Below are positions 3,930 through 33,130 of a stretch of 64,000 nt of DNA, piece after piece. Made by a program: the position numbers and the translations under genes. The notes under the pieces were generated by a model, which ran no database searches, was not told where the DNA came from, and was given only the letters and a program-made list of their open reading frames with translations. Every line of letters begins with the position of its first letter. The first letter of the stretch is position 1. The DNA is from Brevibacillus laterosporus (GTDB taxonomy: Bacteria; Bacillota; Bacilli; Brevibacillales; Brevibacillaceae): the NCBI GenBank assembly GCA_007833815.1, contig CP033464.1:864501-928500 (forward strand), in the 5' to 3' direction.

Positions 3930-4060
3930 CACAAAACCATCCAATCTCATCTAGTTGTAGAAATCAACTATAATCATAACATTGAAGTTGCAATTAATGT
4001 GTAAAAAAGGTTAGATGGATGACTTTGGTTAATGAAAAAAAAACTAGTTTTTTCATAAAA

Positions 4061-4083
4061 AAGAACGCTCATAGGAGCGTTCT
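4061..4083 (-). terminator. Terminator of quorum-sensing cassette 1
   Basis: Read on the minus strand, AGAACGCTCC-TATG-AGCGTTCT forms a stem followed by TTTTTT, 18 nt past the stop of the propeptide gene. A second A/T palindrome (about 4033-4055) follows. The stem core AGAACGCT/AGCGTTCT recurs at the end of cassette 2. Confidence 0.8.
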
Positions 4084-4101
4084 AAGGAGAAATGAATGGA
4101 A

Positions 4102-4236
4102 TTAAAAGCCTGGATCATACACGTACTGTATTACATTGGGTTTACTAGCTTCTGCGACATGAGAGAAGGAATCAATAGAACCCACAGAAATAACCATTGC
4201 TAACGTCATAAAAATCATTATAATTGCCTTTTTCAT
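4102..4236 (-). CDS. Exported signalling propeptide (Phr/PapR-like), cassette 1
   Basis: A 44-codon ORF starting at ATG 4236, 20 nt after the receptor gene's stop, with a strong AGGAGGG site. The product begins MKKAIIMIFMTLAMVISVGS, a compact signal peptide (two lysines then a hydrophobic core). A short hydrophilic linker follows (SHVAEASKPN), then the C-terminal tail VIQYVYDPGF. This is the architecture of RRNPP pheromone precursors: exported by Sec, trimmed outside the cell, re-imported as a 5-10 residue C-terminal peptide, and bound by the co-transcribed TPR receptor. The mature peptide is inferred to be some C-terminal part of that tail. The second cassette's peptide shares the Y-V...P pattern. 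The ORF is too short for routine calling. Confidence 0.75.
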   Translation of the reverse strand: MKKAIIMIFMTLAMVISVGSIDSFSHVAEASKPNVIQYVYDPGF

Positions 4237-4256
4237 CTCAATCCCTCCTAAGCTAA

Positions 4257-5549
4257 CTAATTAATTTTATTTTGTATAATTCTATTATATACGTCTTGAA
4301 GCTTCTGCACCATTTGTAAATCTACAGATTTTTTTTCGCAGAAATAATAGGAGAGAATACTCTTCATACATTCATTAATTTCATGATAAGCATTTATTTT
4401 TCCATATATTGACATACTGGTAAGATAACTATTTAATCCTTCTTCAAATGCTTCAACTAATATTTGATAGGTTCCTTTATTTTGATAATATAATCCCATT
4501 GAATAATACTTATAAGGTGTTTTCGATTCAACTCTCAAAAAATTGTCTTCTTGACTAATTAAATCTGCAATGGCTTCAAACTTTTCCATTTGTAAATATA
4601 GCTCAAACAACTCATTAACTGCATGAATTCGTGAGTCCTCACTAGTATTTTGTAAGCAATCTAGTAGTAATGGAATAGCTACTTCATAATCTTTTTTCTT
4701 TGCCTTTACTATTGCACGAGTCAATGTAGCTGATTCATGGACAAATTGAAAATCAAAAGTTTTATAAATAGATAGATATTTTTCTACCTCATCATATTTC
4801 TCTAATAATAACAGTGCATTAATCATAGCTAAATAAGCTCTAACTTTTAACTCGTTTATTGTATTGTCTTCTACAAGACCTGTCTTTGTTAATTCAATGC
4901 ATTGCTGATATTTTTTTATAGCAAATGCATGAAGCCCCATTCTAAAATAGAAGGTATTTTTCTCGTCCTCGGACAAAAAATCTACATAGTGAATGATTTC
5001 TTCACCAATTTTAAATGACTCCTCCAGATTTTTGAAATCCTGTCTTTCAATTAGATATTTTTGTAGGGACGGTTTGGCTATATAATTTGGTATTCCATGT
5101 ACTCTCGCATACTTGATGATAGCACTATAAAGAGTGAGTCTAATCTCATTACCTGTGATGCTATTACATAGATCATAAAGACGCTCTAATGCTGTATATG
5201 TATCTTCTTGAGGATTTTCAAGGATTTTTTGAGCAACCTTACCTATTAACGTTGTATTAGATAGTTCAATCATTTCTAGTAGTAGCTCGTATAAAATTTC
5301 TACTCGTTGTTGTATCTCTATATAATTCTCTATAATCTCTTCGTATGGTAATACTAATACCGTTGTAATTGCTTTAATTGTTCGAAGCTCTGGTCGCTTC
5401 GTTTCACATGATTCTATTTTTGAGAGTACTCCCTTGCTAACACCTGATAACCTTCCCAATTCTGATAAACTTAGGTTTGCTTGTTGTCTTTTATTTTTTA
5501 TTAATTCACCTAGAGAGGAGTAAAGTACCGCTTGATTTCCTTCCATCAT
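4257..5549 (-). CDS. RRNPP-type HTH-TPR peptide-pheromone receptor, cassette 1
   Basis: 430-residue cytosolic regulator. An Xre-type helix-turn-helix spans about residues 10-66 (LGELIKNKRQQANLSLSELG, GVSKGVLSKIES), and the rest is all-alpha with TPR-like helix pairs (for example KKYQQCIEL, KYDEVEKYLSIYK, KDYEVAIPLLLDCL). This matches PlcR/NprR-type RRNPP receptors, in which a re-imported peptide bound in the TPR groove switches DNA binding. The next gene in the same operon encodes an exported propeptide. It is paralogous to the receptor at 22130-23419, with near-identical stretches such as GVSKGVLSKIES, KRPELRT and SFKIGEEI. ATG 5549 is followed at once by a second ATG; AAGGTGG lies upstream. 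Target genes are not known. Confidence 0.88.
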   Translation of the reverse strand: MMEGNQAVLYSSLGELIKNKRQQANLSLSELGRLSGVSKGVLSKIESCETKRPELRTIKAITTVLVLPYEEIIENYIEIQQRVEILYELLLEMIELSNTTLIGKVAQKILENPQEDTYTALERLYDLCNSITGNEIRLTLYSAIIKYARVHGIPNYIAKPSLQKYLIERQDFKNLEESFKIGEEIIHYVDFLSEDEKNTFYFRMGLHAFAIKKYQQCIELTKTGLVEDNTINELKVRAYLAMINALLLLEKYDEVEKYLSIYKTFDFQFVHESATLTRAIVKAKKKDYEVAIPLLLDCLQNTSEDSRIHAVNELFELYLQMEKFEAIADLISQEDNFLRVESKTPYKYYSMGLYYQNKGTYQILVEAFEEGLNSYLTSMSIYGKINAYHEINECMKSILSYYFCEKKSVDLQMVQKLQDVYNRIIQNKIN

Positions 5550-5589
5550 ATTCCCACCTTAGGACATAATTTCTCAGGACAAAATGAGA

Positions 5590-5605
5590 GAATGGTATAC
5601 CATTC
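5590..5605. promoter_or_regulatory. Perfect 16-bp palindrome in the receptor-1 leader (candidate operator)
   Basis: GAATGGTATACCATTC is its own reverse complement. It lies between the receptor-1 promoter and its start codon, about 40 nt upstream of the ATG. It is a good candidate for autoregulation by the HTH receptor or another dimeric regulator. The same palindrome was not seen at the second cassette, so autoregulation is only a suggestion. Confidence 0.5.
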
Positions 5606-5624
5606 CATTCATTACTCCTCTATA

Positions 5625-5653
5625 ATTCTAGATTAGTTGTATATTATTGTAAA
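5625..5653 (-). promoter_or_regulatory. SigA-type promoter of cassette 1, shared with cassette 2
   Basis: On the minus strand: -35 TTTACA (5653-5648), 17-nt spacer, -10 TAGAAT (5630-5625). The receptor-2 promoter has the same two hexamers and the same 17-nt spacing, and both spacers contain AATATACAA. The conservation of spacer bases suggests a shared regulatory element as well as common descent. Confidence 0.7.
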
Positions 5654-5912
5654 TATAAATAAAGTTTAGTAGTGAAATTATTGTTAATTAAGTGATTTAT
5701 TAATGAAAATAAAAGTAAAATTATCCTTTTTTAGATAATTGCCTTTTTCGAACAAACTTCCATACGCCATGTATTCGAGTAGCTCCTCCACTTCCTGTAA
5801 GCGTTTGGATAAATGGTTAGCTCATTTCCTCCTATTTAGATTTAGCACATTTTCCATAACACCACATTTCTCATTAAGGGTCTTATCCTGTTATAATCAC
5901 TATAAGCAAATC
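5654..5912. other. Intergenic region upstream of the Crp/Fnr gene
   Basis: AT-rich and without a convincing gene. A TATAAT hexamer at 5892-5897 may be the -10 of the Crp/Fnr gene; no good -35 is visible at 17 nt. Confidence 0.4.
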
Positions 5913-5946
5913 AAAGCGAAAGTCAGAACGTTCCGACTTTCGCTTT
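5913..5946 (+). terminator. Terminator-like hairpin in the leader of the Crp/Fnr gene
   Basis: AAAGCGAAAGTC and GACTTTCGCTTT form a perfect 12-bp stem with a 10-nt loop, followed by T residues. It lies only 20 nt before the ATG of the Crp/Fnr gene and downstream of its candidate -10. It could act as an attenuator, or as the terminator of an unseen upstream transcript. Confidence 0.6.
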
Positions 5947-5965
5947 TTCACTTATGGAGGTTGCT

Positions 5966-6481
5966 ATGAGATTGCATAGGGGTGAAATATTATTTCGCCA
6001 AGGAGAAACTGGCCCGCTGTATCACCTAAAAAGCGGCTTATTGAAAATTGTTAGAATTCATGAAGATGGAACAACAACCTTAGTTAATATTATTGTACCT
6101 AATGAAATCATCCCACACCATTCTCTTATCAGCTCCAATCCCTATTTTGGGACCGCCGTCGCACTCGTAACTTGTGAGATCGACATCCTCTATGAACGGG
6201 AATGGTATCAGGAGCTACAGAAAAACCCAGACAAGTGCCGGACCATTGCCTTGCAGCTTCAGGAAAAGCTACGAATGATGCAGCATCGAATTGACCAATT
6301 AACCGAAGTGTCTGCCGCAGATAAATTGCGGAAACTCCAAGCTTGGTTTGAATTCTATATTTCTCCCACTACTTTGACGGATGTGCTAACACAGGATGAA
6401 ATCGGGCAATTTATCGGACTTCGTCGTGAGACTGTAAATAGATTGTTACGAGCTCAGTCTGCCGCTAAATCCGACTCATAG
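5966..6481 (+). CDS. Crp/Fnr-family transcriptional regulator
   Basis: 172-residue DNA-binding regulator. Residues 1-100 form the cyclic-nucleotide-binding-type beta-roll (RGEILFRQGETGPLYHLKSG). The C-terminal third holds the winged helix-turn-helix, with LTQDEIGQFIGLRRETVNRL as the recognition segment. There is no FNR-type cysteine cluster near the N-terminus, so direct iron-sulfur oxygen sensing is not supported. ATG 5966 is chosen over 5954 because TGGAGG lies 5 nt before it. It converges on flavohaemoglobin, whose promoter carries a textbook Crp/Fnr palindrome, so it may control that gene (inference). Confidence 0.88.
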   Translation: MRLHRGEILFRQGETGPLYHLKSGLLKIVRIHEDGTTTLVNIIVPNEIIPHHSLISSNPYFGTAVALVTCEIDILYEREWYQELQKNPDKCRTIALQLQEKLRMMQHRIDQLTEVSAADKLRKLQAWFEFYISPTTLTDVLTQDEIGQFIGLRRETVNRLLRAQSAAKSDS

Positions 6482-8920: not shown

Positions 8921-9610
8921 TTGAATTTAAAATCTTTTTTAAAATCAGGTGTTATTGTAACATTTTTACTTACATCAGTTGTTCCTACAACGTTCGCAGA
9001 AGAATCAACAAGCATTCAAATTACAAATTACGAACAAAGCCCTATTAACTATGATGCTACTGTTCAATTTACTGATCCACAATTAGCTGGCACAGCGAAA
9101 CCTACAACTCAGGGAGGGGTTAGTACGCAAGGAGTAATTCGTGAAGAATACTCTCATTCTTATTACAATTTTGGATCAGCCAAAATCACTGACTACAATT
9201 TAGATAAACGAACTGCAGACACCTTTTTAATTAGTGTTGCTAGAGGACAAACAGTAACACTTGGTAAAACAGTTACTGTTTCAGGTTCTATTGAGTTCAA
9301 TACCTCTGTAAGCACCGAAATTAAAAAAGTAATTAGTCTAGGCTTTGATTTGAAAGCAAATGGATCTTACTCTGATTCATTTTCATCTTCTACTACCTTT
9401 ACTGGTCCTTCAGAATCTTCAAGCAAGCTACATCGGGACTTCTATGGGGCTATTGGCTATGATAAGTATACAGTTAAACTCAAGAAATACGATGTATACA
9501 AAGTTTATAATGGTAACGCTTATATGAGAGATGAGACATATAGTGCAGGGGATATTACAGTTTCAAGCGTTGATAGACCTAAAAAAATTTCTTACTCTAA
9601 AGATTTTTAA
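8921..9610 (+). CDS. Secreted beta-rich protein, pore-former-like repeat pattern
   Basis: 229 residues from a TTG start with AAAAGGGGAG upstream. A signal peptide (about 1-26, cleavage after TFA) is followed by a Ser/Thr-rich, beta-strand-alternating region (GQTVTLGKTVTVSGSIEFN, then SLGFDLKANGSYSDSFSSST). Long runs of alternating Ser/Thr and hydrophobic residues with no cysteines resemble aerolysin/ETX-MTX2-type pore-formers and a broad class of secreted Gram-positive proteins, but no diagnostic motif settles this. It is followed after 6 nt by a lipoprotein gene and a shared terminator, so the two form an operon. Function unknown. Confidence 0.75.
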   Translation: MNLKSFLKSGVIVTFLLTSVVPTTFAEESTSIQITNYEQSPINYDATVQFTDPQLAGTAKPTTQGGVSTQGVIREEYSHSYYNFGSAKITDYNLDKRTADTFLISVARGQTVTLGKTVTVSGSIEFNTSVSTEIKKVISLGFDLKANGSYSDSFSSSTTFTGPSESSSKLHRDFYGAIGYDKYTVKLKKYDVYKVYNGNAYMRDETYSAGDITVSSVDRPKKISYSKDF

Positions 9611-16506: not shown

Positions 16507-18064
16507 GAATCAATTTCATAAAGGCTTTTTCCAAAAATAATTAGACTATCCCTACGGGATTAATGCTGTTTTTTTGAAAAAATTAAGCTGCTACTTTCAT
16601 CCTACTTGCCAGTTCCTACGAATTCGATCCACTGCTAACTTGGAAGCATTATAAACAAGAGTAACCAAGTCAAAATGGACTTTTGCCCTCTTTCCTGTGC
16701 GATATCGGACATTGTTTAGCTGAAAGAACTCCTTCAAATAAGCATGTACTCGCTCTACGGCTGTTCTCTGGTCATATAGTTCTTCCCACGTTTTTGTTCC
16801 TCTGGCTGGCGCGGCGTACTTTCGAAGATCGGTTTCAGCCTTAATTTTATAGACTTTTTGACAGAGAGAATCCTGATTCAATGGACAGTCTTTACATTCT
16901 TTTGGCCGTACAAATTTCAACGTTTTGTACTTCTTATCATAACTGTCGTAACGATAAGAGCATTCTCGGACACAAGTTGGCGCAAAATGTGAATCGAATC
17001 CAACCATTTCTCCTTCATTCCGCTTGTTGTAAGCAATAATCGCTTGTGCGTTCATTCGTCCGACTTGTTGATAGATCGGGACATAGTCATATCCCGCATC
17101 CATGATTGCATATCGCATGTGATTGGGCAGTACAGTTTGAATTCCTTTCAACAAAGGAATCGCTGCTTTCCCATCGTTCATACTTCCAGAGGACATGAGG
17201 GAGCAAAGAATATATTGACTTTTCGTACTGACTGCAAGATGAGCTTTGTATCCAAACCAAAACATGTTCTTTCCATCACTATTTTTCTTTATTCCCCAAG
17301 CAGGTTTGATAGGAACTTGGGACCGTAGGTCCTCCAACGTCACATCCAATTGAGCTACAATGTTTTTTTCATATAAGGACTTCTGGGCTTCCTTTTCTTG
17401 CTTTTGCTTGTCGTAGATATCTTTTTCTGCTTTTGATTTACGTCCGCGTTTTTTCAATTCTGGTTTCGTCTTTTTTTCTTTTGCCACACCTCGATCACGG
17501 GATTCAAAATGGGTTGCATCGATGGCAATTGCTTCATCGCCTATGAACCCTTCCTGTATCGCTTGCAACAGTAACTTGTCTTGGACTTTATCGAGGTGTG
17601 CTGTTTCAGAAAGCTTCTGAACGAGACGAGAGTACGATGCCTCGGAAGGAAGATTGTCAGAAAACAGAAAACCGCATTCCATTCGAAAGATAAAGTCATG
17701 TTTTAGTCGTTTTCGTAAATCTTTCACAGTGGGAATTCGTTCTACGATTCGAGCGACCAGAGAATATAGCATGGCAGCATAATTCAACTCGGTAGGAGCA
17801 CCATATATCGACTTTTTGGAAATAGAGAAAAGAAGCGGTTCAATGTCAAGAGTGGAGAAAATAGCCTCAAAACGTTTGGGAGGTTCTAAGTCGAATAATT
17901 CTTGTATATCAAATAGGCTTCCTTGTTTTATAATAGACATTGGGAGTCACCACCACCTCTTAAGTTTGGGTCGCACTTAACTTATTAGAGATTTGGGGAG
18001 GTACTCCTTTTTCTATGCTCAAAAACTCTTGGGCCCGTAGGGCTCTGATTTATGAAATTGATTC
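16507..18064 (-). mobile_element. Insertion sequence copy A (1558 bp), inside the AIPR gene
   Basis: The ends are GAATCAATTTCATAAA and its inverted copy, flanked by a 4-bp direct repeat AGCT (16503-16506 and 18065-18068). One transposase gene occupies most of it on the minus strand. Copy B (18251-19808) is the same length, has the same transposase, and looks identical base for base where compared, so both insertions are recent. The target duplication is a palindromic tetranucleotide in both cases. Confidence 0.93.
16597..17940 (-). CDS. DDE transposase of IS copy A
   Basis: 447-residue DDE-type transposase. The N-terminal DUF772-like domain (YGAPTELNYAAMLYSLVARI) is followed by the catalytic core. 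The first Asp is in AIDATHFESRD, the second in AIMDAGYDYVP, and the Glu in RTAVERVHAYLKEFF. A Cys cluster (ECKDCPLNQDSLCQ) precedes the last catalytic block, as in IS1182/IS5-like transposases. A basic, charged insertion (KKTKPELKKRGRKSKAEK) lies after the first Asp. The ORF is intact, so the element may still be mobile. The exact IS family (IS1182 or a neighbour) needs an ISfinder comparison. Confidence 0.9.
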   Translation of the reverse strand: MSIIKQGSLFDIQELFDLEPPKRFEAIFSTLDIEPLLFSISKKSIYGAPTELNYAAMLYSLVARIVERIPTVKDLRKRLKHDFIFRMECGFLFSDNLPSEASYSRLVQKLSETAHLDKVQDKLLLQAIQEGFIGDEAIAIDATHFESRDRGVAKEKKTKPELKKRGRKSKAEKDIYDKQKQEKEAQKSLYEKNIVAQLDVTLEDLRSQVPIKPAWGIKKNSDGKNMFWFGYKAHLAVSTKSQYILCSLMSSGSMNDGKAAIPLLKGIQTVLPNHMRYAIMDAGYDYVPIYQQVGRMNAQAIIAYNKRNEGEMVGFDSHFAPTCVRECSYRYDSYDKKYKTLKFVRPKECKDCPLNQDSLCQKVYKIKAETDLRKYAAPARGTKTWEELYDQRTAVERVHAYLKEFFQLNNVRYRTGKRAKVHFDLVTLVYNASKLAVDRIRRNWQVG

Positions 18065-18250: not shown

Positions 18251-19808
18251 GAATCAATTTCATAAAGGCTTTTTCCAAAAATAATTAGACTATCCCTACG
18301 GGATTAATGCTGTTTTTTTGAAAAAATTAAGCTGCTACTTTCATCCTACTTGCCAGTTCCTACGAATTCGATCCACTGCTAACTTGGAAGCATTATAAAC
18401 AAGAGTAACCAAGTCAAAATGGACTTTTGCCCTCTTTCCTGTGCGATATCGGACATTGTTTAGCTGAAAGAACTCCTTCAAATAAGCATGTACTCGCTCT
18501 ACGGCTGTTCTCTGGTCATATAGTTCTTCCCACGTTTTTGTTCCTCTGGCTGGCGCGGCGTACTTTCGAAGATCGGTTTCAGCCTTAATTTTATAGACTT
18601 TTTGACAGAGAGAATCCTGATTCAATGGACAGTCTTTACATTCTTTTGGCCGTACAAATTTCAACGTTTTGTACTTCTTATCATAACTGTCGTAACGATA
18701 AGAGCATTCTCGGACACAAGTTGGCGCAAAATGTGAATCGAATCCAACCATTTCTCCTTCATTCCGCTTGTTGTAAGCAATAATCGCTTGTGCGTTCATT
18801 CGTCCGACTTGTTGATAGATCGGGACATAGTCATATCCCGCATCCATGATTGCATATCGCATGTGATTGGGCAGTACAGTTTGAATTCCTTTCAACAAAG
18901 GAATCGCTGCTTTCCCATCGTTCATACTTCCAGAGGACATGAGGGAGCAAAGAATATATTGACTTTTCGTACTGACTGCAAGATGAGCTTTGTATCCAAA
19001 CCAAAACATGTTCTTTCCATCACTATTTTTCTTTATTCCCCAAGCAGGTTTGATAGGAACTTGGGACCGTAGGTCCTCCAACGTCACATCCAATTGAGCT
19101 ACAATGTTTTTTTCATATAAGGACTTCTGGGCTTCCTTTTCTTGCTTTTGCTTGTCGTAGATATCTTTTTCTGCTTTTGATTTACGTCCGCGTTTTTTCA
19201 ATTCTGGTTTCGTCTTTTTTTCTTTTGCCACACCTCGATCACGGGATTCAAAATGGGTTGCATCGATGGCAATTGCTTCATCGCCTATGAACCCTTCCTG
19301 TATCGCTTGCAACAGTAACTTGTCTTGGACTTTATCGAGGTGTGCTGTTTCAGAAAGCTTCTGAACGAGACGAGAGTACGATGCCTCGGAAGGAAGATTG
19401 TCAGAAAACAGAAAACCGCATTCCATTCGAAAGATAAAGTCATGTTTTAGTCGTTTTCGTAAATCTTTCACAGTGGGAATTCGTTCTACGATTCGAGCGA
19501 CCAGAGAATATAGCATGGCAGCATAATTCAACTCGGTAGGAGCACCATATATCGACTTTTTGGAAATAGAGAAAAGAAGCGGTTCAATGTCAAGAGTGGA
19601 GAAAATAGCCTCAAAACGTTTGGGAGGTTCTAAGTCGAATAATTCTTGTATATCAAATAGGCTTCCTTGTTTTATAATAGACATTGGGAGTCACCACCAC
19701 CTCTTAAGTTTGGGTCGCACTTAACTTATTAGAGATTTGGGGAGGTACTCCTTTTTCTATGCTCAAAAACTCTTGGGCCCGTAGGGCTCTGATTTATGAA
19801 ATTGATTC
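18251..19808 (-). mobile_element. Insertion sequence copy B (1558 bp), in the AIPR 5' leader
   Basis: Same length, ends and transposase as copy A, offset by exactly 1744 bp. It is flanked by the direct repeat ATAT (18247-18250 and 19809-19812). It separates the AIPR start region from a candidate promoter whose extended -10 (TGTTATAAT on the minus strand) lies at 19818-19823. Confidence 0.93.
18341..19684 (-). CDS. DDE transposase of IS copy B
   Basis: The 447-residue product has the same sequence as the copy A transposase, including the DDE residues in DATHFESRD, MDAGYDY and AVERVHAYLKEFF. The reading frame is intact. Two same-orientation identical copies 186 bp apart could recombine and delete the intervening AIPR start. 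Confidence 0.9.
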   Translation of the reverse strand: MSIIKQGSLFDIQELFDLEPPKRFEAIFSTLDIEPLLFSISKKSIYGAPTELNYAAMLYSLVARIVERIPTVKDLRKRLKHDFIFRMECGFLFSDNLPSEASYSRLVQKLSETAHLDKVQDKLLLQAIQEGFIGDEAIAIDATHFESRDRGVAKEKKTKPELKKRGRKSKAEKDIYDKQKQEKEAQKSLYEKNIVAQLDVTLEDLRSQVPIKPAWGIKKNSDGKNMFWFGYKAHLAVSTKSQYILCSLMSSGSMNDGKAAIPLLKGIQTVLPNHMRYAIMDAGYDYVPIYQQVGRMNAQAIIAYNKRNEGEMVGFDSHFAPTCVRECSYRYDSYDKKYKTLKFVRPKECKDCPLNQDSLCQKVYKIKAETDLRKYAAPARGTKTWEELYDQRTAVERVHAYLKEFFQLNNVRYRTGKRAKVHFDLVTLVYNASKLAVDRIRRNWQVG

Positions 19809-21257: not shown

Positions 21258-21569
21258 TCATCTCGTTCCTTTTTGTTTTGTTTCAAGCAAGATGTCCTTA
21301 GCTTCTTTTTTTAACTCAAGTCGGCGTTCAGACCATTCTAGTTTTAATTCTTGTTTTCGTAATATTCTAGCTGGCTCTATCAATTTCAATTTCTTGATAG
21401 GAGTCACCCCATACCAACATAATGAAACCCCCTCTAGCGTCTTAAAGGAATAGCTGAAAAACGGCTGTTTATATGCCCCAAAGGGGTTCGTAAGGTTCCC
21501 GTACAGCGTATTCTCATCGACAACCAGTTTAGCGTTTTGTAAGCTTTTGAAAGACAACAATGTACTCAT
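21258..21569 (-). CDS. Uncertain ORF (103 codons)
   Basis: The frame yields a moderately protein-like product with a basic, helical C-terminus (ARILRKQELKLEWSERRLEL). Its ATG lies inside the end of the Spo0E-like frame (41-bp overlap), and no strong ribosome-binding site is present. No family is recognised. It may be a fragment of a mobile gene. Confidence 0.3.
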   Translation of the reverse strand: MSTLLSFKSLQNAKLVVDENTLYGNLTNPFGAYKQPFFSYSFKTLEGVSLCWYGVTPIKKLKLIEPARILRKQELKLEWSERRLELKKEAKDILLETKQKGTR

Positions 21570-21741
21570 CTAGTTGTTGACTAATATGCAATACTTCTGG
21601 ATGTAAAAAGGAACCTTTTTTGAAATACCGATGCTCTAACTCTTTACGGAGGACTTCTATAAGCTTCTGTAAATTGTTTTCTAATTGAAAATTTTCTGTT
21701 TTCTTATCCTGTAAATCAGTGGTAGAATATCCTTGAGTAAC
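21529..21741 (-). CDS. Spo0E-family aspartyl-phosphate phosphatase (start unclear, possibly decayed)
   Basis: The frame reads LENNLQKLIEVLRKELEHRY, then HPEVLHISQQLDEYIVVFQK, the two-helix hairpin of Spo0E-like phosphatases with the signature S-x-x-x-D (SQQLD). These proteins dephosphorylate Spo0A~P and delay sporulation. No ATG, GTG or TTG occurs in frame between the upstream stop and the conserved part, so translation would need a rare start (ATT-type), or the gene has lost its start. The coordinates given are the open part of the frame. It lies directly beyond quorum-sensing cassette 2. Confidence 0.55.
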   Translation of the reverse strand, partial: VTQGYSTTDLQDKKTENFQLENNLQKLIEVLRKELEHRYFKKGSFLHPEVLHISQQLDEYIVVFQKLTKR

Positions 21742-21759
21742 TTTTTTTGTTGCTCAAGG
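21731..21759. promoter_or_regulatory. Hairpin over the 5' end of the Spo0E-like frame
   Basis: CCTTGAGTAAC, T7 loop, GTTGCTCAAGG: an 11-bp stem with one wobble. Together with an upstream GGGCGTTCC/GGAACACCC inverted repeat it gives the transcript a structured leader, possibly regulatory. Confidence 0.4.
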
Positions 21760-21939
21760 TGGGGGTGTTCCGATGGTCGTCAAACTAACGGGAACGCCCT
21801 TCTCTATTGTTAAAAAGCATAGGCTAATAACAGACACCTCCTTCCTTGTGTGTATTATTTTACCATATGTACTATAAATTTCCTTCATTCAAAAAAATGT
21901 AATACGATCTACAAATTTCGACAAAATATCACAAATAAA

Positions 21940-21988: not shown

Positions 21989-22126
21989 TCAGCCTTGTGG
22001 ATTATCAACATATGCTTTTACACTACTGTAGACTACATGATTTTCTGAGTTATTATAATTAGCTACAGTGAATAGCGTAAATAATACTAGTGAACCAGTT
22101 GTGATAATGGTTAAATATTTCTTCAT
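21989..22126 (-). CDS. Exported signalling propeptide (Phr/PapR-like), cassette 2
   Basis: A 45-codon ORF starting 3 nt after the receptor stop, using AAGGGAGG inside the receptor's last codons. The product begins MKKYLTIITTGSLVLFTLFT (signal peptide), then a polar linker (NYNNSENHVVYSS) and the tail VKAYVDNPQG. Length, layout and position match the cassette 1 propeptide (44 residues, tail VIQYVYDPGF). Both tails have Tyr-Val followed by an acidic/Asn residue and Pro. It is inferred to be the precursor of the peptide read by the receptor at 22130-23419. Confidence 0.75.
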   Translation of the reverse strand: MKKYLTIITTGSLVLFTLFTVANYNNSENHVVYSSVKAYVDNPQG

Positions 22127-22129
22127 TAC

Positions 22130-23419
22130 TTATTCCTCCCTTTCCTCTCCTTTATTTACCATATTATATACTCCCGTTAGCTTTTTCAGAAGGGGTAATT
22201 CCAATTGTTTTGCTTTCTCACAGTGATACTTGTATATATCTTCTTGACACTCCATAATATTTTTCCGATCATTAATTTTGCTATAGAAGTGCATACTTTG
22301 GAGATAAGCCTCCATTCCCTCATCAAACAAGCCACAGTCTACAAGAAACGTACCTTTATATTTAAAGTACTTTCCTAATCCAGAAAAATTATAAACGTTG
22401 TTAAAATCAAATGGAAAGTTCTTTTCCTCTTTTTCTATAATCTCCTGGACTGAATCTACATCATTTATGTTGAGTAATGCCTCTAATAGCTCATTGACTC
22501 TATGAATTCGGTTATTTTTTGTTGCTTCTTCTACACACTCTTTTAATAAAGGGATAGCTTCCTGATATTCCCCCTTTTTCGACAGTATAACTGAACGAAA
22601 AGTTTTTGTTCGCTCAATTATAAAGCGATAGTCTAGCCTCTCATACATCTCTAGATGTTCTTCTACACTTAAAAAGTTATTCATTCGGAAGTAGGAATTA
22701 CAAATCGCTAAAGCAACCCTTTCTTTTACCTCATTGTCTGTTTTATCTTCGGCATGTCCCATCTTGCCGAATTCAATACACTTTTCATACTTATTAATAT
22801 CATGTGCATCAAACGACATTTTATAGTAAAGCGTGATCTTCTCTTCTTGATCTAAGAAGTCTATGTAATGCAGGATCTCTTCTCCAATTTTAAAGGAATC
22901 TTCAAGATGCTTTAAATCCGTTCTCTCAATCAAGTATTTCTGCAATAGCCCTTTAGCTATATACTTTGGCACTCCATGTAATCTGGCGTATTTAATAATA
23001 ACATTATATATTACTTGCCTTGCTTCATTGTTTACGATTGAACCAGCAATATTATGCAGATGTTCTAATATTAAATATGTATCCATGCTAGGGGATTTCA
23101 TGATCTGTTGTGCCACTTTAGTGGTTAGTGATATGTTAGAAATTTCAACCGATTCTAAAAGCAAATGATCTAGGATATCAATTCGGTGTTCAACATCGAT
23201 ATAGCGTTCAATGATTTCTTCATAAGGGATTTCTAAAACATCTGCAATCGGTTTTAATGTCCGAAGCTCTGGACGTTTCGTTTCCCCAGATTCAATCTTC
23301 GATAAGACCCCCTTACTAACTCCTGACACTCTCCCCAGTTCCGACAGACTAATACCCATCTCTGTTCTTTTCCCTTTTATCAGCTCCCCCAATGTTGTGA
23401 AAGTTAGGCTTACAATCAT
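22130..23419 (-). CDS. RRNPP-type HTH-TPR peptide-pheromone receptor, cassette 2
   Basis: 429 residues. The Xre helix-turn-helix spans about 9-65 (LGELIKGKRTEMGISLSELG; GVSKGVLSKIESGETKRPEL). A TPR-like superhelix follows (EYQEAIPLLKECVEEATKN; DEGMEAYLQSMHFYSKIN). It is paralogous to the receptor at 4257-5549 along its whole length. ATG 23419 has AAGGGG 6 nt upstream. It forms a tight operon with the propeptide gene. The Spo0E-like frame next to it suggests the pathway touches sporulation or phosphorelay control, but targets are not identifiable from sequence. Confidence 0.88.
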   Translation of the reverse strand: MIVSLTFTTLGELIKGKRTEMGISLSELGRVSGVSKGVLSKIESGETKRPELRTLKPIADVLEIPYEEIIERYIDVEHRIDILDHLLLESVEISNISLTTKVAQQIMKSPSMDTYLILEHLHNIAGSIVNNEARQVIYNVIIKYARLHGVPKYIAKGLLQKYLIERTDLKHLEDSFKIGEEILHYIDFLDQEEKITLYYKMSFDAHDINKYEKCIEFGKMGHAEDKTDNEVKERVALAICNSYFRMNNFLSVEEHLEMYERLDYRFIIERTKTFRSVILSKKGEYQEAIPLLKECVEEATKNNRIHRVNELLEALLNINDVDSVQEIIEKEEKNFPFDFNNVYNFSGLGKYFKYKGTFLVDCGLFDEGMEAYLQSMHFYSKINDRKNIMECQEDIYKYHCEKAKQLELPLLKKLTGVYNMVNKGEEREE

Positions 23420-23478: not shown

Positions 23479-23507
23479 ATTCTAACTTTATTGTATATTT
23501 TTGTAAA
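23479..23507 (-). promoter_or_regulatory. SigA-type promoter of cassette 2
   Basis: On the minus strand: TTTACA (23507-23502), 17-nt spacer, TAGAAT (23484-23479). Both hexamers and spacing equal those of cassette 1. Confidence 0.7.
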
Positions 23508-23549
23508 TAACAATAAAAAATAATAGATTGATTTATTTTTTATTATCAG

Positions 23550-29893: not shown

Positions 29894-30709
29894 ATGAAAA
29901 AAAACCTTAAAAAAACATCCGTACGTTTGACAGCTTTAGGATTGGTCACTGCGATCGCCCTATCTGGTGGTTTACTAGTAAGTGCACATGAAAATCCAAC
30001 TCAAAATACTGTAGCTCAAAAACAAGATTCTGAGAAATTGTATGCAGGAGGTTTCAAAAAAATCCCAGTTTCCGAGGCTCTTGCGGACAAGAATGTGAAA
30101 GCAGCACTCGATGGAGTCTATGCTCAGTTTCCAGAAACAAAATCCTATGAGATTAGTGTTTATCAAGATGTGGATTCAAGCGAGCAGTATACTATTAGAC
30201 TTAATGAAGGTGCTTTTCAATTTTCAGTAGATTTGAAAACAGGGAAAGTTATCGATAGCATACGATCATTGGCAGCTTCCGAGGCTCTTGCGGACAAGTA
30301 TGTGAAAGCAGCACTCGATAGAGTCTATGCTCAGTTTCCAGAAACAAAATCCTATGCGATTGAAGCCAGTTTTCTAGACAGAGGTGATTCTAGCTGGTAT
30401 AACATTACGTTAAGTGATAAAGATTTCAAAAATTATTTCACTGTTGCAGTAGATTCGAAAACAGGGCAAGTTAGCTATACGGTACAATCATTGAAGGCTT
30501 CTGAAGTTCTTTCAAACGAGAATGTAAAATCCGGGGTAGATAAAATGCATGCCTTGAAACCAGAAACAAAATCCTATGAGATTACAGAAGCCAGTGTTAC
30601 GGAAAACAATTTTTATGTCAGCTATCACATTACGTTAAGTGATAAAGATTCCGAAGATAGTATCGTTTTTTCAATAGATGGGAAAACGGGAGAGCTTATT
30701 GGATACTGA
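29894..30709 (+). CDS. Secreted soluble copy of the M56 sensor ectodomain
   Basis: 271 residues; AAAGGAG precedes ATG 29894. Signal peptide (about 1-31, LTALGLVTAIALSGGLLVSA) is followed by a short linker and three ~70-residue repeats, each beginning ASEALADK/SEVLSNEN, continuing PETKSY[EA]I and closing with a [DS]SKTGQV/DGKTGEL turn. The repeats are PepSY-like. From NTVAQKQDSEKLYAGGFKKI to the C-terminus it matches the ectodomain of the M56 protein at 31391 with only a few substitutions, although the signal region differs. A soluble decoy, ligand-binding or inhibitor role is plausible. BlaI-type dyads at its promoter tie it to that regulator. Confidence 0.8.
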   Translation: MKKNLKKTSVRLTALGLVTAIALSGGLLVSAHENPTQNTVAQKQDSEKLYAGGFKKIPVSEALADKNVKAALDGVYAQFPETKSYEISVYQDVDSSEQYTIRLNEGAFQFSVDLKTGKVIDSIRSLAASEALADKYVKAALDRVYAQFPETKSYAIEASFLDRGDSSWYNITLSDKDFKNYFTVAVDSKTGQVSYTVQSLKASEVLSNENVKSGVDKMHALKPETKSYEITEASVTENNFYVSYHITLSDKDSEDSIVFSIDGKTGELIGY

Positions 30710-31390: not shown

Positions 31391-33130
31391 GTGGAATTCG
31401 TCAATATCTATCTTTTACCCTTCTTTAGTTGGGTGTTACAGACTTCTATGATGGCTAGCGTGATGGTAGGTCTCATCTTATTGATTAAGGCTGTGCTTGG
31501 AAACAGACTGTCCCCAAGATGGCATTATCTGTTATGGATGCTGGTTATTCTGCGGTTGCTCCTCTTATGGGCACCTGAGAGTTCGTTCAGCATCTATAAC
31601 ATGCTACCCTATAGTCACGAAACATCACCAACGTTCCACATAATATCTTCGCTTCCCTCAGAGGAGTCAGTTGTCCCTAGCTCATCTATGCACCATGAAG
31701 GAAAAAAAGTGGAATCAGCTAGCCTTTCCCTCTATACGCTGGGGTTATTTATTTGGATAGTGGGTGTCTTTTGCTTTGGTATGGTAGCCATTGTTGTAAA
31801 TAGACGAGTATATTTGCATATCAAAAAACAATCCATCATTACCGATCCACGAGTGATTCAGCTCTTTGAACGCTGTAAAAAGAAGATGTCAGTCAAACGC
31901 TCCATTCCTTTAGTCGTATCAAATGGAATTTCAAGCCCTACGGTTTTTGGATTTATGCGCCCCCGCATTCTCCTGTCTGATACGCTCTTACAAACGCTTG
32001 GAGATAAGCAGCTACAGTTTATTTTCTATCATGAATTAGCTCACATTAAACGAAATGATGTGGGGATCAATTTGCTGATGAATGCTTTGCTCCTCTTGCA
32101 TTGGTTCAATCCACTTCTGTGGTATGCGTATTACCGCATGCGAGAGGATCAGGAAATTGCATGCGATGCACGTGCGCTCACATACATTGATTCCGAACAA
32201 AAAATCGAGTACGGTCATACGATCATCCGTTTACTGGAGCATTATTCAAGAAATCAGCATCTTCCTAGTTTGGCAAATTTAGTAGGGAGTAAAAACCAAC
32301 TAAAAAGAAGAATTCTCATGATTAAAAACTTCCACAAAGGATCGTATCGTTTGTCAACCCTAGGATTGGTTGCTGCCATTGTTATATCTGGCGCTTCATT
32401 AGTAAATGCAAAAGCCCCTTTTCAAAATACTGTAGCTCAAAAACAAGATTCTGAGAAATTGTATGCAGGAGGTTTCAAAAAAATCCCAGCTTCCGAGGCT
32501 CTTGCGGACAAGAATGTGAAAGCAGCACTCGATAGAGTCTATGCTCAGTTTCCAGAAACAAAATCCTATGAGATTAGTGTTTATCAAGATGTGGATTCAA
32601 GCGAGCAGTATACTATTAGACTTAATGAAGGTGCTTTTCAATTTTCAGTAGATTTGAAAACAGGGAAAGTTATCGATAGCATACGATCATTGGCAGCTTC
32701 CGAGGCTCTTGCGGACAAGTATGTGAAAGCAGCACTCGATAGAGTCTATGCTCAGTTTCCAGAAACAAAATCCTATGCGATTGAAGCTAGTTTTCTAGAC
32801 AGAGGTGATTCTAGCTGGTATAACATTACGTTAAGTGATAAAGATTTCAAAAATTATTTCACTGTTGCAGTAGATTCGAAAACAGGGCAAGTTAGCAATA
32901 CGGTACAATCATTGAAGGCTTCTGAAGTTCTTTCAAACGAGAATGTAAAATCCGGGGTAGATAAAATGCATGCCTTGAAACCAGAAACAAAATCCTATGA
33001 GATTACAGAAGCCAGTGTTACGGAAAACAATTTTTCTGTCAGCTATCACATTACGTTAAGTGATAAAGATTCCGAAGATAGTATCGTTTTTTCAATAGAT
33101 GGGAAAACGGGAGAGCTTATTGGATACTGA
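31391..33130 (+). CDS. M56 (BlaR1-type) membrane metalloprotease with a repeat ectodomain
   Basis: 579 residues. Several N-terminal membrane helices (for example SWVLQTSMMASVMVGLILLI; LLWMLVILRLLLLWAPE; GLFIWIVGVFCFGMVAIVV) flank the M56 protease: zinc motif HELAH in FIFYHELAHIKRND and the downstream EDQEIACDARAL. After a further helix (RLSTLGLVAAIVISGASLVN) comes an extracellular part of three PepSY-like repeats instead of the penicillin-binding sensor of BlaR1. The signal sensed is therefore unlikely to be a beta-lactam through that domain. The operon partner is the BlaI-type repressor. The ectodomain is almost the same as the secreted protein at 29894. Confidence 0.9.
   Translation: MEFVNIYLLPFFSWVLQTSMMASVMVGLILLIKAVLGNRLSPRWHYLLWMLVILRLLLLWAPESSFSIYNMLPYSHETSPTFHIISSLPSEESVVPSSSMHHEGKKVESASLSLYTLGLFIWIVGVFCFGMVAIVVNRRVYLHIKKQSIITDPRVIQLFERCKKKMSVKRSIPLVVSNGISSPTVFGFMRPRILLSDTLLQTLGDKQLQFIFYHELAHIKRNDVGINLLMNALLLLHWFNPLLWYAYYRMREDQEIACDARALTYIDSEQKIEYGHTIIRLLEHYSRNQHLPSLANLVGSKNQLKRRILMIKNFHKGSYRLSTLGLVAAIVISGASLVNAKAPFQNTVAQKQDSEKLYAGGFKKIPASEALADKNVKAALDRVYAQFPETKSYEISVYQDVDSSEQYTIRLNEGAFQFSVDLKTGKVIDSIRSLAASEALADKYVKAALDRVYAQFPETKSYAIEASFLDRGDSSWYNITLSDKDFKNYFTVAVDSKTGQVSNTVQSLKASEVLSNENVKSGVDKMHALKPETKSYEITEASVTENNFSVSYHITLSDKDSEDSIVFSIDGKTGELIGY

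Follow-up and report, generated by a model that had tools for sequence, protein, structure and literature searches.

A predicted receptor and peptide pheromone pair of the RRNPP type in Brevibacillus laterosporus

The receptor and propeptide genes at the locus

The window analysed here is a stretch of 64,000 nt from Brevibacillus laterosporus (assembly GCA_007833815.1, contig CP033464.1, positions 864,501-928,500 of the forward strand), and all coordinates refer to it. It contains two receptor-propeptide cassettes of the same family, the first of which (cassette 1) is our main subject. Their features are as follows.

4062..4083, minus strand: intrinsic terminator 3' of the propeptide ORF, a stem followed by TTTTT (z -4.5)
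4102..4236, minus strand: propeptide ORF of 44 aa, MKKAIIMIFMTLAMVISVGSIDSFSHVAEASKPNVIQYVYDPGF, with a signal-peptide-like start and the C-terminus VIQYVYDPGF; kept in orthologues L027-L029
4105..4134, minus strand: candidate mature pheromone VIQYVYDPGF, the last 10 codons (codon comparison; mature length putative)
4243..4249, minus strand: Shine-Dalgarno sequence AGGAGGG of the propeptide ORF
4257..5549, minus strand: receptor of 430 aa with an Xre-type HTH (residues about 13-74) and degenerate TPR-like repeats (ORF, Pfam, family profile)
5625..5653, minus strand: promoter-like TTTACA-N17-TAGAAT before the receptor-peptide operon (promoter scan and conservation)
5638..5655, minus strand: family promoter/operator-like element TATTTACAATAATATACA, TTTACA-N4-TATACA (genome-wide pattern search)
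21989..22126, minus strand: propeptide ORF of the second receptor, 45 aa, with the C-terminus VKAYVDNPQG
22130..23419, minus strand: second family receptor, 48% identical to the first (sequence comparison)
23492..23509, minus strand: the same element before the second receptor, TATTTACAAAAATATACA (pattern search)

In cassette 1, receptor and propeptide are separated by 20 nt (4237-4256). The propeptide begins with KK; a hydrophobic stretch and then a VAEA motif follow, and the tail is SKPNVIQYVYDPGF. Its signal peptide was judged from composition alone. Three terminator-like sites were found in 3950-6000, while 0.5 would be expected. An ORF with a Shine-Dalgarno sequence and a signal-peptide-like start stands directly behind only 2 of the 42 window frames compared (at least 170 codons, stop to stop), namely the two family receptors. 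Such a peptide ORF was seen at 45 of 20000 random positions, real ones not being excluded, so that the layout of receptor and peptide ORF is commoner than chance.

The receptor matches HTH_3 above the Pfam cut-off (E 1.7e-7, residues 17-65). Its own TPR signal is weak (TPR_12, E 0.0045, under the Pfam cut-off), whereas it is clear in the family as a whole: TPR_2 was found at E<=0.5 in 21 of 28 members scanned (best 2.9e-11), and designed consensus TPR proteins are matched by the family profile at 5.8e-18. The receptor also matches PHROG 32768, whose function is unassigned, at 2.4e-144. Its top PDB matches are Stl and Orf22 (E 4e-5; window 4260-5549, residues 9-191), which belong to an island repressor family. 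The original prediction, an HTH-TPR receptor with a 44-aa exported-type propeptide and a terminator, is therefore borne out by the gap, the Shine-Dalgarno sequence, HTH_3, the TPR signal of the family and the terminator stem.

Orthologues of the receptor, 88-90% identical, are present in three related genomes (L027, L028 and L029). The original prediction had named loss of the small ORF beside orthologous receptors as evidence against itself; we looked for this, and all three orthologues keep the peptide, with the tail VIQYVYDPGF or AIQYVYDPGF. The HAD hydrolase gene downstream is likewise retained at all three loci (90-92%). The Crp-like neighbour in the window was not found at L027-L029 within the sequence examined there, and by motif search no spo0E-like frame was seen in the DNA examined beside cassette 1 or its three orthologues. 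Among the four orthologous propeptides dN/dS is 0.06-0.28 (six pairs), and their codon columns hold 12 synonymous and 6 amino-acid-changing differences overall but 6 and 0, respectively, in the last nine codons (36-44). The proposed reading as a quorum-sensing receptor and propeptide is well supported by a peptide kept at 3 of 3 orthologous loci under purifying selection, and the two genes form a real and conserved pair, most likely a working pheromone pair.

Elsewhere in the window, two 447-aa frames of the same sequence (16597-17940 and 18341-19684) lie 400 bases apart and look transposase-like, and a secreted-looking protein of 229 aa (8921-9607) has no Pfam match at E 0.001. The neighbouring frames 29894-30709 and 31391-33130 have a nearly identical C-terminal stretch, which in one of them appears fused to a membrane metallopeptidase-like part.

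Paralogues, peptide tails and spread of the family

The genome itself contains 26 family matches. We analysed 16 of these receptors, which are full-length or nearly so and include cassette 1, and left out L015, L017-L020 and L022-L026 as fragments. A peptide ORF lies behind 15 of the 16 receptors, and none was found behind L016; in two (L003 and L005) the frame is interrupted by an internal stop. Within the genus, six genomes were searched, this one among them, and the family is present in all of them. For the genus set we combined the 16 receptors with 21 of the 64 matches from the five relatives (25 loci were fetched; L041, L045, L050 and L051 were left out). The peptide filter was passed by 34 of these 37 receptors, and L030 and L040 pass only a looser one.

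In most tails (28 of 34) the C-terminus is DPG followed by F, Y, H or W. YDPGF occurs in cassette 1 and its three orthologues, whereas the five remaining members of their group have YDPGY or YDPGH; elsewhere in the family the tails are VVDPG[HY], NADPGY, DNPQG and others. The second peptide of the window ends in VKAYVDNPQG, and thus DPG is not universal even within the window. Orthologous receptors largely have the same tail and most paralogues have different ones, as would be expected of a ligand, and conservation is strictest at the extreme C-terminus, outside the hydrophobic stretch. Both points argue against the alternative that the small ORF encodes some other secreted or membrane micropeptide which merely travels with the regulator. 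Tails do not follow the receptor tree strictly, since by inspection YVYDPGF appears again in the distant L031, and close receptor pairs such as L009 and L043 have tails that are unlike at the last residue. The recurrence of like tails in distant receptors such as L031 is what the micropeptide alternative would have in its favour, and we regard that alternative as very improbable compared with a pheromone.

Interrupted or truncated receptors are common in the genome (L003, L005, L015, L017-L020 and L022-L025), and an open peptide ORF is still present behind the defective receptors L003, L005, L015 and L019. Such interrupted receptors with retained peptide ORFs suggest rapid birth and death of receptor-peptide pairs.

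Family homologues are also encoded by plasmids of Brevibacillus and Paenibacillus (7 records) and by Brevibacillus phages, three in number (5 records, with a coverage of only 35% in Jenst). A search with a Paenibacillus plasmid receptor gave matches at 1e-20 in 13 of 200 class genomes, each labelled as own genus or own family. With the A1 profile, at 1e-30, the genome under study was the only match among 299 phylum genomes. A contig scan gave 45 family loci under the names Paenibacillus, Chengkuizengella and Brevibacillus and one Anoxybacillus name, with no P. polymyxa locus among the 45. Since few class or phylum genomes match yet the contig scan gives 45 loci, we consider the family patchy outside Brevibacillus.

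A promoter/operator-like element before the receptor genes

The promoter scan as a whole is near expectation (18 sites against 10.1 expected), and therefore the case for the promoter rests on its conservation in orthologues and paralogues. Inside the spacer of TTTACA-N17-TAGAAT lies TATACA, and we searched for the combined pattern WTTTACANNNNTATACA. In the own genome it has 15 matches, 13 of them before receptor genes or remnants, and it lies 73-129 nt upstream of intact receptor frames. The five other genomes have 28 matches, 23 at receptors or remnants (G003, 10/10; G004, 8/10; G005, 3/4; G001, 2/4), and G002 has no match in its genome. Together, 36 of the 43 matches in six genomes are at receptor genes or remnants. 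As a control, the pattern read backwards gave 3 matches in the own genome and 5 in the five others.

Seen from the receptors, the exact element precedes 12 of the 16 in the own genome; L008 has it with one mismatch, and L012, L016 and L021 lack it. It is also found before the receptor in the phages Sundance and SecTim467 and on a B. halotolerans plasmid, and it is absent before the receptor in pBRLA33 and in the two Paenibacillus plasmids examined. When up to 3 mismatches were allowed, the own genome had 18 matches, 14 of them at receptors or remnants. The remaining four (L175, L177, L181 and L182) have no receptor nearby and were rejected as extra targets, their number being close to that of the backwards control (3). 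The palindrome GAATGGTATACCATTC (about 5590-5605) was also rejected as an operator, as it is absent from orthologues L027-L029.

We read the element as a candidate for a combined promoter and operator through which the receptor would regulate its own gene. Because it overlaps the -35, it may owe some of its conservation to being an ordinary promoter of gene duplicates. On a stricter form of this explanation, TTTACA-N4-TATACA would be no more than a promoter that duplicated genes have kept, and the receptor would act at other sites: TTTACA and TAGAAT can be read as -35 and -10, and recent duplicates have long upstream stretches in common. Against it, TATACA in the spacer is kept before receptors that are only 44-55% identical, and also despite differing flanks in Sundance, SecTim467 and the B. 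halotolerans plasmid. We take this explanation as a serious competitor, somewhat the less probable of the two; it bears on this one step and not on the pair.

Spo0E-like frames behind sister cassettes

By sequence motif, and within the 1.5 kb examined, a Spo0E-like frame was detected behind 9 of the 16 receptors of the own genome; several phage, plasmid and Paenibacillus relatives have one too. Many sister cassettes are followed by a conserved block (window about 21529-21900, minus strand; L002, L003, L007, L010 and L011), which consists in order of a TTGTCGAA stretch, an extended -10, a purine-rich stretch, an ORF of roughly 27 codons ending in GTPPP, a second inverted repeat and the Spo0E-like frame. 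The TTGTCGAA stretch resembles a Spo0A box, and the GTPPP ORF contains an inverted repeat, GGGCGTTCC/GGAACGCCC. In the own genome, no ATG, GTG or TTG precedes the Spo0E motif in five of the nine Spo0E-like frames, yet these five are open and share the phase of the GTPPP ORF beyond its stop codon.

Folded as RNA, the stretch before spo0E has 15 predicted pairs, of which 1 shows a change on both sides, with a covariation term of +0.24; on these values we do not claim an RNA structure as proven. A search of Rfam gave nothing at the gathering score in the window, and two sub-threshold matches lie near cassette 2. In the Alo system, AloR13 directly controls a spo0E gene, as described in passages of PMC7425212, and Spo0E is a likely output of the sister cassettes.

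Assignment to a family of RRNPP receptors

According to passages of Bernard 2023 (PMC10075063), families are delimited by at least 30% identity over 80% mutual coverage, and a plasmid of B. laterosporus LMG 15441 carries one AloR homologue and one cluster 8 receptor. In our comparison AloR13 has a match of 44.5% on LMG 15441 plasmid pBRLA33. The gene concerned is the first long one beyond a window-family receptor and its small peptide gene, so that the family pair adjoins the AloR13 homologue on one plasmid (L052, 3989-7088). NZ_CP007808, the second LMG 15441 plasmid that AloR13 matches, has no match to the window receptor. Relative G003 is probably LMG 15441, since the family receptor on its contig C2 occupies the position that it has on pBRLA33. 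As pBRLA33 thus holds one AloR13 homologue and one receptor of the window family, the latter would by elimination be cluster 8. The cassette 1 receptor is 43.9% identical over 97% to this pBRLA33 receptor (BRLA_RS22615, WP_003338811.1), whose place in the catalogue as cluster 8 would follow from the same elimination. Moi 2025 (PMC12700828), in the passages available, describes a Paenibacillaceae "subfamily 08" with an HTH, nine TPRs and DPG peptides. By elimination and by the DPG motif, we infer that cassette 1 belongs to cluster 8 of Bernard 2023 and subfamily 08 of Moi 2025.

The alternative is that cassette 1 belongs to AloR-AloP, the described quorum-sensing family of Paenibacillaceae. Brevibacillus is among the genera with AloR-like matches in the part of Voichek 2020 (PMC7425212) concerned, the structure tree of Moi 2025 (PMC12700828) places subfamily 08 as the sister of AloR, the gene layout is alike, and spo0E-like frames stand beside many family members. 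We located alo13 loci in four genomes by the published mature peptide SHGRGG and a downstream Spo0E-like ORF; such a locus has a receptor of about 470 aa, an AloP13-like ORF and the Spo0E-like ORF. Over 94 N-terminal residues AloR13 is matched by the second window receptor (E 5e-7), and when the profiles are compared, 117 columns at the N-terminal end can be aligned (E 1.3e-4, probability 54%). The window family and AloR13 are therefore probably related in their HTH parts. Against membership, BLASTP of the receptor with four AloR13 sequences gave E 0.08-0.10 in a six-sequence database and about 20% identity over 186-299 residues, and Brevibacillus has a separate AloR13 homologue, on the same plasmid as a family receptor. 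The window receptor did not reach 30% identity over 80% mutual coverage with AloR13, and we rejected it as a member; that cassette 1 is an AloR-AloP system seems to us highly unlikely.

Proposed mechanism

The best overall explanation is that cassette 1 is a chromosomal RRNPP-type pair of subfamily 08 (cluster 8) that would work by the steps below, which are modelled on known RRNPP systems; we give it a probability of nearly nine in ten (about 0.88). First, receptor and propeptide would be transcribed as one operon from a sigma-A promoter, whose sequence is seen upstream. Second, the propeptide would be exported via Sec and cleaved after VAEA, as in RRNPP systems, leaving SKPNVIQYVYDPGF; further trimming may then yield a C-terminal peptide, about 6-10 residues long, that ends in YDPGF. 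Third, an oligopeptide permease would re-import the peptide, which would bind the TPR part of the receptor. Fourth, the receptor would bind TTTACA-N4-TATACA over its own promoter, and the peptide would alter this binding. The receptor is likely an autoregulated, peptide-controlled transcription factor. Through such peptide-dependent binding at the promoter, the pair would set its own expression by cell density.

Since this element recurs at many sister receptors, a receptor may also act on the promoters of its paralogues. Where a spo0E-like frame lies next to a sister cassette, that cassette probably controls the frame, and through it probably the timing of sporulation. A wider and doubtful proposal is that the subfamily 08 pairs of one genome form a single network, with a dozen receptors, mostly distinct DPG pheromones and one common promoter/operator, through which each peptide could shift the expression of other pairs; cassette 1 would be a node which has no effector gene of its own and only feeds the network.

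Comparison with known systems

In PlcR-PapR and NprR-NprX, an HTH-TPR receptor is followed by an exported propeptide. Cassette 1 has this RRNPP-type layout, as had been foreseen, but the PDB matches give no support for these two systems as its nearest kin: no chain named PlcR or NprR is among the 16 PDB chains matched by the receptor, nor among the 60 listed of the 303 that the family profile matches. Nor was the peptide system unrecorded at the family level, as the original prediction had it, since it fits cluster 8 and subfamily 08 with their DPG tail motif. The subfamily has already been described computationally (Bernard 2023, PMC10075063; Moi 2025, PMC12700828, in the passages available to us). 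What is added here is the TTTACA-N4-TATACA element before receptor genes, together with the tails largely common to orthologues. Among the matches listed for the open-licence literature, a scope outside which most subscription papers fall, there is no bench study of any subfamily 08 pair. Cassette 1 is a clean candidate for a first test, its pair being intact and chromosomal, with both pheromone and operator predicted, and because close relatives differ at the last residue (F, Y or H), specificity could be tested with few synthetic peptides.

Compared with AloR-AloP of Paenibacillus polymyxa, as described in parts of PMC7425212, gene order, many paralogues per genome and a spo0E beside some of them are the same. 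The mature AloP13, SHGRGG in the same source, is different in not being of the DPG type, and cassette 1 differs in having neither full-length similarity to AloR13 nor a spo0E-like frame beside it. With AimR-AimP (arbitrium), the likeness, drawn by description only, is the DPG motif in the peptides of both AimR and subfamily 08 as given in passages of Moi 2025 (PMC12700828). Cluster 8/subfamily 08, to which cassette 1 is assigned by elimination and motif, showed no difference from it in the features compared. They have in common an N-terminal HTH and TPRs in the receptor (the TPRs clear family-wide and weak in this receptor alone), an adjacent short exported propeptide with a Sec-type signal, here by composition, DPG tails, with YDPGF in cassette 1, and a spread across chromosomes, plasmids and phages.
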